This document shows, one piece after another, positions 17,601 to 28,305 of a DNA stretch of 64,000 nt (positions within the stretch are counted from its first letter, which is position 1; the number at the start of each line of letters is the position of its first letter). The stretch comes from Hyunsoonleella jejuensis (GTDB lineage: Bacteria; Bacteroidota; Bacteroidia; Flavobacteriales; Flavobacteriaceae): NCBI RefSeq assembly GCF_900111025.1, contig NZ_FOFN01000003.1, positions 310,001-374,000 on the forward strand, given 5' to 3'. Position numbers and translations under genes: made by a program. The notes beneath the pieces are model-generated. The model did not search any database, was not told the origin of the DNA, and was given only the letters and a program-made list of their open reading frames with translations.

Positions 17601-19802
17601 ATGAAAATAAAAGTACTACTATTGTTTTTAATTGTGATTCTAAAAAGTAATGCACAAGATTATCCTTTCAATCTGCCCGATAATATTGAAGCAACCATAA
17701 ATTTGAATACTGAGTCTCAAGAAAGCTTCAATAACTTATTATTAGGAACAAATATTCACCATTTTAGCACTGATGAAGAAAAAGATTTCGTGAGGTTGTT
17801 CAATCCACTTTCAGTACGTTTTCCTCATGGGTTATGGGCTAATTGGTATGACTGGAGAAGAGATGTGTCTAGACTTTTTGGTGAAGAGCAGTTTGAGTAC
17901 AAACAGGGCGCTAATGGCACCCCTAGAATGAAAGAGGTAGATTTTTTGGCCAATTTATATATTTTTGATAACAATAATATAAAAGTGGGAATTGATGGTT
18001 TAACCACATTAAATACGGAACGTAAATCCAATACAGGTAAAGGGTTCAGTATGATGTGGACCTTCAATATGAGTGCAGATGGCACTGATTTTAGCAATGG
18101 TTCTCCCGAAAGTGTTGCCCGCTATCAAGATTTAATTAATAGAGGATTTGAAGTTAAAGACGTTGAAATGGGTAACGAGAATTTTTATCCAGGACAGAGA
18201 AGTTCAATAATACCTAATGCAGAAGATTATATTGCCAGAGCAAAATCTATGTCGGCAGCTTTAAAGGAGCTAAATCCAAATATTAGAGTATCTATACCCT
18301 TACTTAGACGTGATAGTTGGGCAAACCCAAATTGGAATATAGACTTAACCGTAGATCAGTCCTATTTTGATGCTGTTACCATACATACCTATGTAGGTTC
18401 AGATCCAGATGATGCCAGTAACAGCGATGAAGCGTATAGCACAGCCTTAACAGCGAGAAAACACTTATTAGCATCAGTCATAGATTACCCGCGTAAAGTA
18501 ACGAATAAGCCTATTTGGTTAACAGAGTGGGGTGTGAAATCTGGAGGACCTAATGCGGTATCGGCATTAGGTGCTGTGGATTGTTTTTTAATGATGAGCG
18601 AAAATCAAGATATTTTTGAGCGTGCTAATTGGTTTAGTACCAATGGTAAATTAAATTCAATGCTGGTTTGGGAAGAATATATAGATGGGCAAGGTAATAC
18701 TAAAGAAAGAATAAAATATCCTTTAGAAAAAACCTTATTTGGGTCGGCTTATGAAATTACCCGAAGTATTCTTGAAAATAGTACATTAATAGGTAGTGAC
18801 ATAGAGGCTCCAAACCTTGTTGAAGGTGTAAAAGCAGTAAGTGCTAGAGTAGTTTGGAAAGATGGTAAAGCTACTATTTTGGCTTTGAATTTAACCGATA
18901 AGGATGTGGTTTTTAATGTGTCAGTTGACGGTGGAATTTTTACAGATACGTATATACATAAAGCTATGGCGTTTTTGGCTGTAGATGAAGAGCGTGCTCT
19001 ACCCTACAACGATAGTCCGTTATCATTAATCAAAGAGGGAACAGGCCAAATTATTCTACCCAAATTATCGATTAATACCATAGCATTGAGCGGTGTTAAC
19101 TTTACAGAGGCATTACCTTCTAATAATTTTAATATTGAAACCATTAGCGAAACATGTACAGGTAAAAATAACGGAAAAATCATTATAAATACACTGCGTA
19201 CCAAAAACTATAGGATACAAATTGCTGGAGTAGATTATAGTTTTACAAAAGATATAACTATTGAAAATTTAAGTTCTGGAAATTACGATTTCTGTATCAC
19301 AGTTGATGGCGAAGATTTTGAACAATGCTTTAGTTTAGAAATTGAATCTGGAAATTCTATTTCAGGTAAAATAGCTCAAAATAAAGACAAAGCGACTATT
19401 GCTATTGAAAGTGGTGAAGGTCCTTATACCATCATTAAAAATGGTGATTTATTAATGACGACATACCAAAAATATTTGGAAATTAATGTAGCTCATGGCG
19501 ATGTTATTGACGTTAAGGCAAAGACCGACTGTCAAGGTAAATTATCTAAAAGAATAAATATGCTAGAAAATATTTTAGCGTATCCAAATCCATCGAAAGG
19601 TGTGTTTGATATGTATATTCCAAATGACTTTAAAGAGGTAACGTTACAAATGTTTAATGTTTATGGTCAATTAATATCAAATCAGGTTCATGCTGTAAAT
19701 GGAGGTAAAGTGCATATTGATATCTCTAATAAACCTTCAGGTATTTATTTTGTAAAAGTAGGTATAGAGAACCAGGCTACTGTTAAAATTATGAAGCAAT
19801 AA
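17601..19802 (+). CDS. Clan GH-A glycoside hydrolase with type IX secretion tail
   Basis: A 733-residue secreted protein with a signal peptide ending near S-N-A-Q. The catalytic TIM barrel (about residues 30-400) resembles GH39/GH51/GH79-type enzymes without a clear family match by eye. Candidate acid/base is Glu193 in V-E-M-G-N-E-N-F and candidate nucleophile Glu309 in I-W-L-T-E-W-G. A beta domain follows (400-500), then two repeated beta modules (about 510-655) and a C-terminal Por_Secre_tail (about 655-733, beginning A-Y-P-N-P-S-K-G and ending V-K-I-M-K-Q) for export by T9SS. It is the only enzyme here with such a tail, so it probably acts outside the cell on polymer or long oligomers. It has its own long upstream region with a TACAGGATAG motif. 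Confidence 0.8.
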   Translation: MKIKVLLLFLIVILKSNAQDYPFNLPDNIEATINLNTESQESFNNLLLGTNIHHFSTDEEKDFVRLFNPLSVRFPHGLWANWYDWRRDVSRLFGEEQFEYKQGANGTPRMKEVDFLANLYIFDNNNIKVGIDGLTTLNTERKSNTGKGFSMMWTFNMSADGTDFSNGSPESVARYQDLINRGFEVKDVEMGNENFYPGQRSSIIPNAEDYIARAKSMSAALKELNPNIRVSIPLLRRDSWANPNWNIDLTVDQSYFDAVTIHTYVGSDPDDASNSDEAYSTALTARKHLLASVIDYPRKVTNKPIWLTEWGVKSGGPNAVSALGAVDCFLMMSENQDIFERANWFSTNGKLNSMLVWEEYIDGQGNTKERIKYPLEKTLFGSAYEITRSILENSTLIGSDIEAPNLVEGVKAVSARVVWKDGKATILALNLTDKDVVFNVSVDGGIFTDTYIHKAMAFLAVDEERALPYNDSPLSLIKEGTGQIILPKLSINTIALSGVNFTEALPSNNFNIETISETCTGKNNGKIIINTLRTKNYRIQIAGVDYSFTKDITIENLSSGNYDFCITVDGEDFEQCFSLEIESGNSISGKIAQNKDKATIAIESGEGPYTIIKNGDLLMTTYQKYLEINVAHGDVIDVKAKTDCQGKLSKRINMLENILAYPNPSKGVFDMYIPNDFKEVTLQMFNVYGQLISNQVHAVNGGKVHIDISNKPSGIYFVKVGIENQATVKIMKQ

Positions 19803-20036: not shown

Positions 20037-21506
20037 ATGAATTATAAACCTATTGTAATTTTGGTTATCATTTTTTTAATAATAACCTACATGGGGCCAT
20101 TGCATGCACAAAATAGCGATACTTATAATTCTTTAAATCAGTATGCCTTCGATTTATACGGCGAATTAAAAGAAGAAAATGAAAACCTTTTGCTCTCACC
20201 TTTAAGTACGTATTATGCACTTTTAATGGCTTATGAAGGTGCTAATAATACAACTAGGCAAGAGTTTGAGAACGTATTGTACATTGAAAATTCTCAATAC
20301 ATTCCAAGCAAATTATTAAATACCCAAAAACAGCTATCAGACAGTTTATATGGTTTAAAAGTGGCAAATGCCCTTTGGTCAGACATAGGGTTTCAAGTAG
20401 ATACAACTTACAGAAATTCAGTATTACATAAGTACGGTTCAGATGTTCATCAAATCGAGTTTAAAAACACAGGTTTGGCAGTTTCAAAAATCAATGAATG
20501 GGTTGCTAAAAATACCAACAACAGAATACAAAACATTCTAAACCTGTCAGATTTAAATGTCGACTCGAAATTAGTTATTTCCAATGCAGTTTATTTTAAA
20601 GGCGAATGGCTTAAAGCGTTTAAAAAAAGTGCAACTCATAAAAATGTATTTTTTACCGATAGCATTAACCAATATCGTACAGATTTTATGAATAAAACAG
20701 AAAAGCTGATGTATTTTGAAAATGAAGCTTTTCAGTTTGTAGCAAAGCCTTATAAGCAATCAAACTTATCGTTTGGAATTATTTTGCCAAAAGACTTTTT
20801 TGGTCTAGAAGCTGTTGAAAGCCAGTTAAATGATAAATTATTTATTGAGCTATTGGAAGATGCTGATACCTTAAATGTTAGGCTTTCAATGCCAAAAATA
20901 AAATTGGAGTCTCAGCTTAAATTAAAACCAGTTTTAAAAAAATTAGGTCTAGAAACCATGTTTAATCAGGAAGCCGATTTTTCTGGAATTAATCGAAACG
21001 ATAGCCTGCACTTTAGTCAATTTATACATAAAACCCAAATAGACCTTAACGAAGAATATACTGAAGCTGCAGCAGCTACTGTAGCCGTAGCATATATTCG
21101 TGGAATACCCAAACGCAAAGATGTTGTAGCCGATCATCCGTTCATGTTTTTCATTTTTGATAATTATACTCGAAGCATATTATTCATTGGACGTTTTACA
21201 AAACCACAAAACGGCGAATTGGTTGAAGAAGATGAATTTTCAACTGATTTGGTACAAAGAATTATAAATGAGATAAAACCTAATAAGCGGACAAGTTGGA
21301 GTTATACACAACCTTTAACTGTGATTGTTGACGGGAAGGATTTAATTGCAGTAGATTTGAATGATATTGATTTTGACGATGTTGAGGATATAAAAAATTA
21401 TAAAGTAGATGCCATACAGTTAGCATCTAAAGGTTACGAAGGCCTAATTGCAATTACCCTTAAAAAGGGCAAAACAAAGAAACTAAAAAGAAAAATCACG
21501 AAATGA
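20037..21506 (+). CDS. Serpin with C-terminal TonB-plug-like extension
   Basis: A 489-residue exported protein with a signal peptide ending near L-H-A-Q. Residues about 30-395 form a serpin: N-L-L-L-S-P-L-S near the start, [12 protein letters not shown] in the middle, the reactive-loop hinge [12 protein letters not shown] from Glu339, and D-H-P-F-M-F-F-I and I-L-F-I-G-R-F at the end. Counting from the hinge puts P1 at Arg355, so a trypsin-like protease target is possible; the loop seems about two residues longer than in alpha-1-antitrypsin, so P1 is uncertain. Residues 426-483 add an extension with V-I-V-D-G-K-D, a D-V-E-D-I pattern and a [11 protein letters not shown] ending, the pattern of TonB-receptor plug domains. 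Its TGA overlaps the ATG of the next sulfatase. Likely role: protecting surface or secreted enzymes from proteases. Confidence 0.88.
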
Positions 21507-22915
21507 AAGCATTACTCTTAAAATTATTCCTGTGCGGTCTAGTTTTTTCTGGGCATAATAGTTTCAGTCAAACTAAAACGCAATCTAACAAAAACAAAAA
21601 GCCCAATATTTTATTTATTGCTGTTGACGATTTGCGTCCTGAACTTAATTTTTACGGCGCAAATCATATTAAATCTCCAAATTTAGATAAACTTGCTGGG
21701 GAGAGTTTGGTGTTTAGTCGTGCTTATTGTAATATTCCAGTGTGTGGAGCTTCTAGAGCCAGTTTAATGACAGGGGCGAGACCTACAAGAAAACGATTTA
21801 TCAATGCGCATATTAAAAAAGATGAAGATTACCCAGAGGCTATCTCGTTGCCTATGTTATTAAAACAAAACGGATATATAACAATTTCTAATGGTAAAAT
21901 ATACCATCATAAAACAGATGATAAAAATGCATGGGACGAAATATGGCAAGCAGATGGCTTGTGGAGCTATGCCTTACCAGAAAGTCAAGAAATAAGAAAG
22001 AATACCCGTAGGGGCTTACCTATCGAAATGGCGGAGGTTCACGACTCTGTGTATAGAGATGGAAAATTGGCATTAAAAGTCATAAGGGATTTACAAAAAT
22101 TAAAGCAAGAAAAGCAATCCTTTTTCTTAACCATGGGGTTAATGAAACCCCATTTGCCTTTTACAGCACCAAAAAAGTATTGGGATTTGTACGATAGGGC
22201 AAGTATAGAATTACCCGAAAGTTATATTCAACCAGAGAATACTCCTAAACAAGCCTTTCACAATTTTGGTGAGTTGCGCCAATATGAAAACATACCAAAA
22301 AAAGGAGATTTACCAGATGCATTAGCCAGAGAATTAATTCATGGCTACTACGCCTGTGTAAGTTATATCGATGCGCAAATAGGTTTGGTTTTGGATGAAC
22401 TAAAACGTTTAGAATTGGAGGATGACACAATTGTTATTTTGTGGGGAGACCACGGTTGGAATTTAGGCGACCACAAGCTATGGTGCAAGCACGTTACATT
22501 TGAAACTTCTCTAAGAACACCATTGATAATAAAAGTGCCAGGAAAAACTAAAGGAGAAAAAACAAATGCCATAACCGAATACATAGATATTTACCCAAGT
22601 TTAGCAGAACTGGCGGGATTAGATATTCCCAATACAGTTGACGGTAAAAGCTTTGTGCCTATTTTAAATGGCGAAAAGCCACAGAAAAATTGGGCAGTTT
22701 CTAAATTCAAAGATGCAGTTACTCTTATAAAAGGCGATTTGTTTTACACGGAATGGACGGATGATAATGGGGTTGCCTATGCGCGTATGCTATTCGATCA
22801 TAAAAATGATCCTTTAGAATTAGAAAACTTGGCTGAAAAACTAGAATATGGGAATCTCGTTAAAACATTATCACTGGAACTTAGAGAAAAATGGGGTGAA
22901 GATTTTTTGAAATAA
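21503..22915 (+). CDS. Family S1 sulfatase, CGASR type
   Basis: A 470-residue exported sulfatase with a signal peptide ending near N-S-F-S-Q rather than a lipobox. Activation motif [11 protein letters not shown] at Cys81; the Ala in place of Pro is an accepted variant of the C-x-(P/A)-S-R rule. First metal site A-V-D-D-L-R-P; pocket motif G-L-M-K-P-H-L-P-F; second metal site [11 protein letters not shown] followed by W-C-K-H. It is a close paralog of the sulfatase at 26866, sharing long identical stretches through the C-terminal half. It starts within the stop codon of the serpin gene (ATGA), so it is translationally coupled to it. Iduronate-2-sulfatase-like; substrate unknown. Confidence 0.93.
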
Positions 22916-26865: not shown

Positions 26866-28305
26866 ATGAATACAAATATGAAATGCTTTCTAAAGTTTAT
26901 TGTAATTAGTTTTCTTTTTATATCATGTAAAAATGAGCAAAAAGAAGAGACAATAATTGAAGAAAAAAAGCCAATGAACATTTTGTTTATTGCAGTTGAT
27001 GATCTGCGCCCTGAGCTAAATTTTTATGGCGCCAATTATATTCAATCACCCAATTTAGATAAATTGGCCAGCGAAAGTCTGGTGTTTAACAGAGCCTATT
27101 GTAATATTCCTGTATGCGGTGCTTCAAGGGCAAGTTTGCTTACCGGCATGCGGCCAACAAGACATCGATTTATTAATTACAAAACAAGGGCAGACGTTGA
27201 TGCTCCCGAGGTAGTTACATTACCCAAGCTTCTAAAACAGAATGGATATACAACCATTTCAAACGGAAAAATTTATCATAATAATAATGACGATAGTTTA
27301 GCTTGGGATAACAGATGGTTTCCAAAAGGTAATATTCGCAATTATCAATTAGAAGAAAATATAAATACAAATGGTAGTGCTAATTTAGCTGTTGCAGGGG
27401 CTGCGGCCTTTGAAATAGCTGAGGTTCATGATACTGCATATTTTGATGGTAAAATAGCCCAGAAAGGCATTGCAAATTTAAAAATGTTAAAAAATAAAAA
27501 GCACCCCTTTTTTCTGGCACTGGGCTTTATGAAACCGCATTTACCGTTTAATGCACCAAAAAAGTATTGGGATTTATATGATAGATCTAAAATTGAATTA
27601 CCAGAGAGTTATACGCAACCAGAATCAACACCTAAACAAGCATTTCACAATTTTGGTGAGTTGCGCAATTATGGAAACATTCCCAAGAAAGATGATCTTC
27701 CAGATGAATTAGCTAAAGAATTGATTCACGGTTATTACGCATGTGTAAGCTATGTGGATGCACAAATTGGTTTGGTTTTAGACGAGTTGAAGCGTTTAGC
27801 ATTAGAAGACGATACCATCGTAATTTTATGGGGTGACCATGGTTGGAATTTAGGTGACCATAAATTATGGTGCAAGCATGTTACTTTTGAAACCGCTTTA
27901 AGAACCCCATTAATCATAAAAGTTCCAGGTAAAACAAGTGGACAACAAACTGACGCTATAACAGAATACATAGATATTTATCCTAGTTTAGCGGAGTTAG
28001 TTGGTTTGAATGTTCCTGCAACCCTGGAAGGAAAAAGTTTTGTGCCAATTATCAATGGACAAATACCAAAAAAGGATTGGGCGGTAAGTAAATTTAAAGA
28101 TGCGGTTACACTAATAAAAGGAGATTTATTTTATACTGAGTGGACTAAAGACGATGGGGTAGCCTATGCACGTATGTTATTCGACCATAAAACAGACCCT
28201 TTAGAATTAGATAATTTAGCTGAAAAGCCAGAATACCAAGACACTGTAAATCAACTTGCTGTGGAGCTTAGAGAAAAATGGGGGAAAGATTTCTTAAGTA
28301 AATAG
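26866..28305 (+). CDS. Family S1 sulfatase, CGASR type lipoprotein
   Basis: A 479-residue lipoprotein (F-I-S-C, Cys21 counted from the ATG at 26866; an in-frame ATG at 26878 would serve equally). Activation motif [11 protein letters not shown] at Cys84; [27 protein letters not shown]. It is highly similar to the sulfatase at 21503 throughout, with an extra segment of about 15 residues near residue 165-180 rich in Asn, Gly and Ala. One copy is a lipoprotein and the other has a plain signal peptide, so the two may work in different places. Likely product of duplication within the locus. Confidence 0.93.

Follow-up and report, generated by a model that had tools for sequence, protein, structure and literature searches.

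The window, by which we mean the whole stretch of 64,000 nucleotides that was analysed, comes from Hyunsoonleella jejuensis and carries on its forward strand an open reading frame of 489 amino acids (20037..21506) that encodes a serpin with a C-terminal tail. Read by eye, residues 1–25 (20037..20111, + strand) form a probable Sec signal peptide ending in GPLHAQ, in which no lipobox cysteine was seen; its residues A24-Q25 are invariant across the four tailed serpins described below. The serpin domain follows at residues 32–390 (20130..21206) and contains the reactive-centre loop, which from the hinge to P1' occupies residues 339–356 (21051..21104). Beyond the domain lies an extra stretch of 99 residues (391–489), which is made up of a weakly conserved linker (residues 391–423, 21207..21305), a segment that shares homology with the plug of SusC-type TonB receptors, more precisely with its C-terminal half, and is hereafter termed the half-plug (residues 424–478, 21306..21470), and a basic end (residues 479–489, 21471..21503). 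Together, the 14 final residues carry a net charge of +9, +9 and +7 in the tailed serpins of three Flavobacteriaceae and of +3 in that of Flammeovirga. The stop codon of the serpin gene (TGA, 21504-21506) overlaps the start codon (ATG, 21503-21505) of the following gene within the four letters ATGA (21503..21506), and this partner gene, on the same strand (21503..22915), encodes a sulfatase of 470 amino acids (PF00884, E 3.4e-40). Scanning the region upstream of the serpin gene for promoters and terminators gave results at chance level.

The reading frame matched the full serpin profile (PF00079, positions 2–370 of 370) at 320.4 bits (cut-off 27; E 2.3e-95), and all 60 best of its 187 PDB matches carry serpin-family names. 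Thus, the proposal of an earlier note on this DNA that the frame encodes a full serpin holds, as does its placement of the hinge and of a P1 residue at Arg355. By standard serpin numbering, the hinge reads E339-E-Y-T-E-A-A-A-A-T348 and the predicted P1–P1' pair is Arg355-Gly356, the arginine codon lying at 21099-21101. Compared with the inhibitory consensus for P17–P9, ExGTEAAAA, as given in the excerpt of PMC8233489 that was available, the stretch E-E-Y-T-E-A-A-A-A has the tyrosine at P15 as its sole misfit. In a comparison of 64 serpins (70 matches minus 6 duplicate copies of tailed serpins), P15 was glycine in 61 and tyrosine in three, namely the window serpin and its two tailed relatives in the Flavobacteriaceae. 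These three proteins also share the motif Y-I-R-G-[IL]-P around the predicted cleavage site. Judged from these residues, the tailed serpin is probably of the inhibitory type, with a trypsin-like cleavage specificity because the predicted P1 is arginine; the tyrosine at P15 in the three Flavobacteriaceae proteins could make loop insertion weaker.

The tail had been described as an extension of about 95 residues resembling a TonB-receptor plug, with a profile search against plug models as the suggested check. Its length is in fact 99 residues and the likeness is confined to residues 424–478, whose counterpart in a plug is the C-terminal half. The homology itself emerged with lineage-specific profiles and not with the Pfam model. 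Up to an E-value of 10, PF07715 (Plug) matched neither the window protein nor any of the three relatives with the tail, while the tail of an M56 peptidase, used alone as a positive control, reached 25.3 bits (cut-off 23.9). Next, a hidden Markov model (HMM) was made for the C-terminal half of the plug, using 12 plug sequences of the same genome (10 from receptor-length frames, two from non-receptor carriers). It scored 20.1 bits for the window tail (E 3.1e-8 for one target), 21.5 for Seonamhaeicola sediminis, 15.3 for the genome G082 and 46.4 for Flammeovirga, and for each of the four tails none of 5000 shuffled sequences reached the score. With a broader model of 30 plugs the signal was weaker, the scores being reached by 0 (window), 7 (S. 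sediminis), 10 (G082) and 0 (Flammeovirga) of 5000 shuffles each. When the half-plug models were run over the 64 serpins used for the tree, the four tailed proteins were found at E ≤ 0.0041, the next best had an E-value of 0.35, and none of the 60 others matched.

The reverse search agreed. When the tails of the four serpins, without any plug sequence, were made into a profile and this was searched against the PDB, the nine best matches were all plugs of SusC/RagA transporters, the best at E 9.4e-8. Four of the nine lie below 0.001 and five between 0.0077 and 0.058, several being near-copies of one protein; the tenth match, at E 0.087, is an unrelated protein. As a single sequence, the window tail found chance matches only in the PDB (best E 0.21, not SusC), and the Flammeovirga tail alone found SusC as its best match (E 4.5e-5). 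Searching the whole serpin against its own genome at E up to 1 returned two weak matches beyond itself (0.098 and 0.34), both of them SusC-type receptors with alignments that cross the plug. Plain scans of the tail with Pfam and NCBIfam models yielded nothing of use; the match to an NCBIfam response-regulator model (E 0.069; 12.9 bits, cut-off 119) we took as chance. The likeness between the serpin tail and the plugs of TonB receptors is one of homology and lies beyond chance.

The module nevertheless stands in a setting different from that of a receptor plug. SusC/RagA TonB-dependent transporters, such as those in PDB entries 6zlt and 5t3r whose plugs were matched by the tail profile, possess a barrel, a TonB box and the N-terminal half of the plug, whereas the tailed serpin lacks all three. 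It ends 11 residues past the half-plug and has, upstream of it, the 33-residue linker and the serpin body. SusC plugs typically contain a YG-x-x-G-x-N-G loop, which the tails of the three Flavobacteriaceae serpins have lost. AlphaFold2 runs with two-row alignments yielded no usable fold (mean pLDDT 29.7 for the whole protein and 41.5 for the tail).

Between the window serpin and that of S. sediminis, the half-plug is under significant purifying selection. Its pN/pS ratio is 0.24 (bootstrap range 0.06–0.73, Fisher p 0.002; 11 of 2000 bootstrap values reached 1 or more), which is near the 0.28 of the serpin body in the same comparison. The linker, by the same measure, has a ratio of 1.8, with 1608 of 2000 bootstraps at or above 1, a value with a wide range that derives from 9 changes only. 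Identity of the linker to that of the window protein falls from 26/33 in S. sediminis to 9/28 in G082 and 4/21 in Flammeovirga. The half-plug is 29% identical to its counterpart in G082 and likewise 29% to that in Flammeovirga, the serpin body 57% to that of G082. From these comparisons one obtains the picture of a tethered, constrained domain that drifts at greater distance.

The searches turned up intact tailed serpins in four species: that of the window, S. sediminis (L020), G082 and Flammeovirga kamogawensis (WP_184679493.1, encoded on plasmid p1), the three relatives being 81%, 52% and 36% identical to the window serpin. With the protein or a profile as query, tailed serpins were found in 1 of 12 genomes searched in the genus, 3 of 397 in the family and 1 of 395 each in the order, the phylum and the class; the genome draws overlap and the own genome is among the hits of every one of these searches. 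Further groups gave 0 of 22 genomes and, in the order of G826, 2 of 341, one being F. kamogawensis itself, matched at 100%, and the other its congener G1478, in which the copy is broken. In the large searches three or four candidates were scored per genome, and matches that were not made loci were judged by their aligned range. At the thresholds used, and with tailed proteins included, any serpin at all was found in 15 genomes of the family, 10 of the order, 56 of the phylum and 36 of the class. The combination of serpin and half-plug is thus rare, and it is conserved. In a tree of 64 serpin bodies the four tailed proteins form one clade with an SH-aLRT support of 100, and the tail needs a single change; the tree was made by a quick method in which columns filled in fewer than half of the rows were left out, and the tail was hence excluded. 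The copy in the F. kamogawensis congener (G1478:C1:4131796-4133030, L166) consists of separate frames with stops in which the half-plug is still legible, and the gene is therefore dispensable there. Some other serpins (L170, L177) also have C-terminal extensions, which are unrelated to the half-plug.

The setting of the window gene is a polysaccharide locus, as had been claimed. By Pfam, the window has GH106 and GH78-type rhamnosidase genes along with GH39, GH2, GH43, heparinase-like and several sulfatase genes, a gene content that suggests a locus of the ulvan type. All four intact tailed serpins lie in a polysaccharide locus, as assigned by Pfam for the window and by eye for S. sediminis and G082. 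The overlap of the serpin stop with the sulfatase start, already pointed out in the earlier note, is confirmed by the coordinates. In S. sediminis the two genes overlap by the same four nucleotides, judged from coordinates, and in G082 a sulfatase of the same type starts about 10 nt past the serpin; the order of serpin followed by this type of sulfatase is accordingly kept in all three Flavobacteriaceae with the tail. According to the record annotation, the F. kamogawensis serpin follows genes for a TonB receptor, SusD, GH2 and GH16 on the same strand, a SusC/SusD pair together with glycan enzymes as expected of a polysaccharide utilization locus, and the next gene encodes an amidohydrolase, not a sulfatase. 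An IS256 transposase gene (L129:29250-30446, plasmid p1) lies between this run of SusC/SusD and glycoside hydrolase genes and the serpin, and is a possible route of gene movement.

In the 64-kb window no TonB receptor or SusC was found, the nearest SusC together with a SusD-like reading frame lying about 44 kb upstream. In G082 a SusC-type reading frame with a SusD-like neighbour, recognised by eye, is located about 11 kb from the serpin, and in F. kamogawensis a SusC/SusD pair lies 8–10 kb away on the same strand. The Pfam scan, which covered 20 of the 39 listed reading frames of the window, named no protease. The sulfatase behind the S. sediminis serpin (L063:7723-9138) is an apparent chimera of two window sulfatases (21503-22915 and 26866-28305): its N-terminus matches the first at 34/45 positions versus 21/45 for the second, and its C-terminus matches the second at 30/30 versus 19/29 for the first. 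It looks as if recombination had removed the block between the two sulfatases from S. sediminis or added it to the window.

Plug-derived modules are not restricted to the serpin. The own genome contains at least four non-receptor carriers of a half-plug or plug, namely an M56 peptidase, a DUF4139 protein, a small CarboxypepD-plug protein and the serpin itself. The M56 peptidase (L059:2198-3892) has its half-plug at the extreme C-terminus. In relatives, seven loci were chosen because their frame length was unsuited to a receptor; they included a VWA/YfbK protein with a plug module as well as the protein with three half-plugs and the alpha-2-macroglobulin described below. Further M56, DUF4139 and CarboxypepD carriers were also found in relatives. 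M56 peptidases of the BlaR1 type thus resemble the serpin in having the half-plug at the very C-terminus; they differ in that the M56 carrier is a membrane metallopeptidase, while the serpin belongs to an inhibitor family. An HMM of six M56 tails scored 24.8 bits for the window tail, 47.9 for Flammeovirga, 21.4 for G082 and 15.2 for S. sediminis. For the window tail the M56 model exceeds the plug model (24.8 versus 20.1 bits) and for S. sediminis the plug model exceeds the M56 model (15.2 versus 21.5), so that the two models disagree between tails on the origin of the serpin's module. In one genome (G406) a protein of 299 amino acids with three half-plug repeats (L162:3154-4053) adjoins an M56 gene that has a half-plug tail of its own.

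A second class of protease inhibitor also carries such a module. A genome of the same genus (G004) encodes an alpha-2-macroglobulin of 1518 amino acids (L158:2578-7134) with an internal plug (PF07715, E 4.5e-13) in the domain order MG2, plug, A2M and TED, the plug following a CarboxypepD_reg match and covering profile positions 2–107 of 107. This receptor plug is nearly complete and internal, whereas that of the serpin is a half and C-terminal. Three other genomes gave half-plug matches in frames of 1528–1541 amino acids, which may belong to the same alpha-2-macroglobulin family. The earlier assertion that no system of this kind had been described therefore applies to serpins in the literature searched, and not to the module in general, given the half-plugs on M56 peptidases and the plug on the alpha-2-macroglobulin of the same genus. 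Neither a serpin–plug fusion nor a serpin in an ulvan locus appeared among the literature matches listed, which for broad searches were a part of the hits; the part of PMC12071298 that was available deals with mouse serpins and bacterial proteases. On the inhibitor side, the closest known systems are bacterial serpins such as miropin of Tannerella forsythia: like these, the window protein has one serpin domain with a hinge of the inhibitory type, P15 aside, and is probably exported from a Bacteroidota cell, while its half-plug sets it apart from the 60 other serpins of the tree. Miropin is named in the available excerpt of PMC8233489.

We favour, with moderate confidence, the reading that the protein is an exported, probably inhibitory serpin whose receptor-derived C-terminal module holds the inhibitor near a partner in the cell envelope, where it would shield the enzymes of the locus; serpin and sulfatase would be made together. 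The signal peptide would direct the serpin to the periplasm. There, the half-plug on its linker most likely acts as a protein-interaction or anchoring module beside an envelope partner. In this position the inhibitor could protect the locus enzymes, first of all the sulfatase encoded by the overlapping gene, from stray or foreign proteases during the breakdown of algal polysaccharide.

A role in cis, in which the tail would lie against the body of the serpin and modulate either its stability or the insertion of its loop, seems unlikely to us. Terminal extensions of the thermophile serpins tengpin and thermopin reportedly act in just this manner, and such extensions are said to be functional in some prokaryotic serpins. 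Tengpin (chain 2vh4) and a related entry (2pee) are among the PDB relatives of the tailed serpin, and tail and body occur together throughout one clade. However, the homology to a receptor domain and the fast-changing linker of 33 residues give the picture of an independent, tethered domain rather than of a segment packed on the body. That the tail attaches the inhibitor to a SusC channel or to the SusD protein paired with it, the function put forward in the earlier note, we hold to be quite unlikely. The half-plug does derive from SusC-type plugs, and SusC/SusD genes lie 8–10 kb from the serpin in Flammeovirga and about 11 kb from it in G082. Yet the serpin has no more than half a plug and no TonB box, the three Flavobacteriaceae proteins have lost the YG-loop, and no SusC was found in the window; the same module also occurs on M56 and DUF4139 proteins and is therefore not peculiar to SusC loci. 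The docking proposal is thus left unsupported.

That the half-plug is a passenger, fused by chance recombination and tolerated without function, appears improbable. The rarity of tailed serpins in the family, the faster divergence of tail than body at greater distance and the broken copy in G1478 would all fit such a history. Against it stand the purifying selection, significant in the comparison of window and S. sediminis, that acts on the half-plug, and the retention of the tail in four intact genes from two orders. The position of the tail at the C-terminus, together with the type IX tail (PF18962) of the product of the upstream gene (17601-19802), might suggest a type IX outer-membrane secretion signal. 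This candidate was rejected and we regard it as highly improbable: neither PF18962 nor any other Pfam or NCBIfam type IX model matches the tail at E up to 10, bearing in mind that HMMER filters drop most weak matches, whereas the neighbour 17601-19802 does match PF18962, a control that covers Pfam only; plug homology, moreover, accounts for the same residues.

More speculatively, one may ask if the favoured reading, a tethered and shielding inhibitor, is an instance of something broader. Bacteroidota might have repeatedly equipped protease inhibitors, a serpin and an alpha-2-macroglobulin, with SusC-derived modules that station them at the envelope; in polysaccharide loci the serpin would be made together with a sulfatase and guard the glycan enzymes, and the strongly basic end of the tail might permit a sulfated polysaccharide to bind or tune the inhibitor. 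We consider this combined proposal rather doubtful and offer it by analogy: heparin binds and tunes antithrombin.

The functions of prokaryotic serpins are called relatively enigmatic in the available part of PMC8233489. With a serpin that is genetically tied to polysaccharide degradation and bears a conserved tail, a role for a bacterial serpin becomes directly testable. The tailed serpin is also part of a broader pattern in Bacteroidota, in which envelope proteins other than receptors carry modules derived from plugs, two unrelated classes of protease inhibitor among them.
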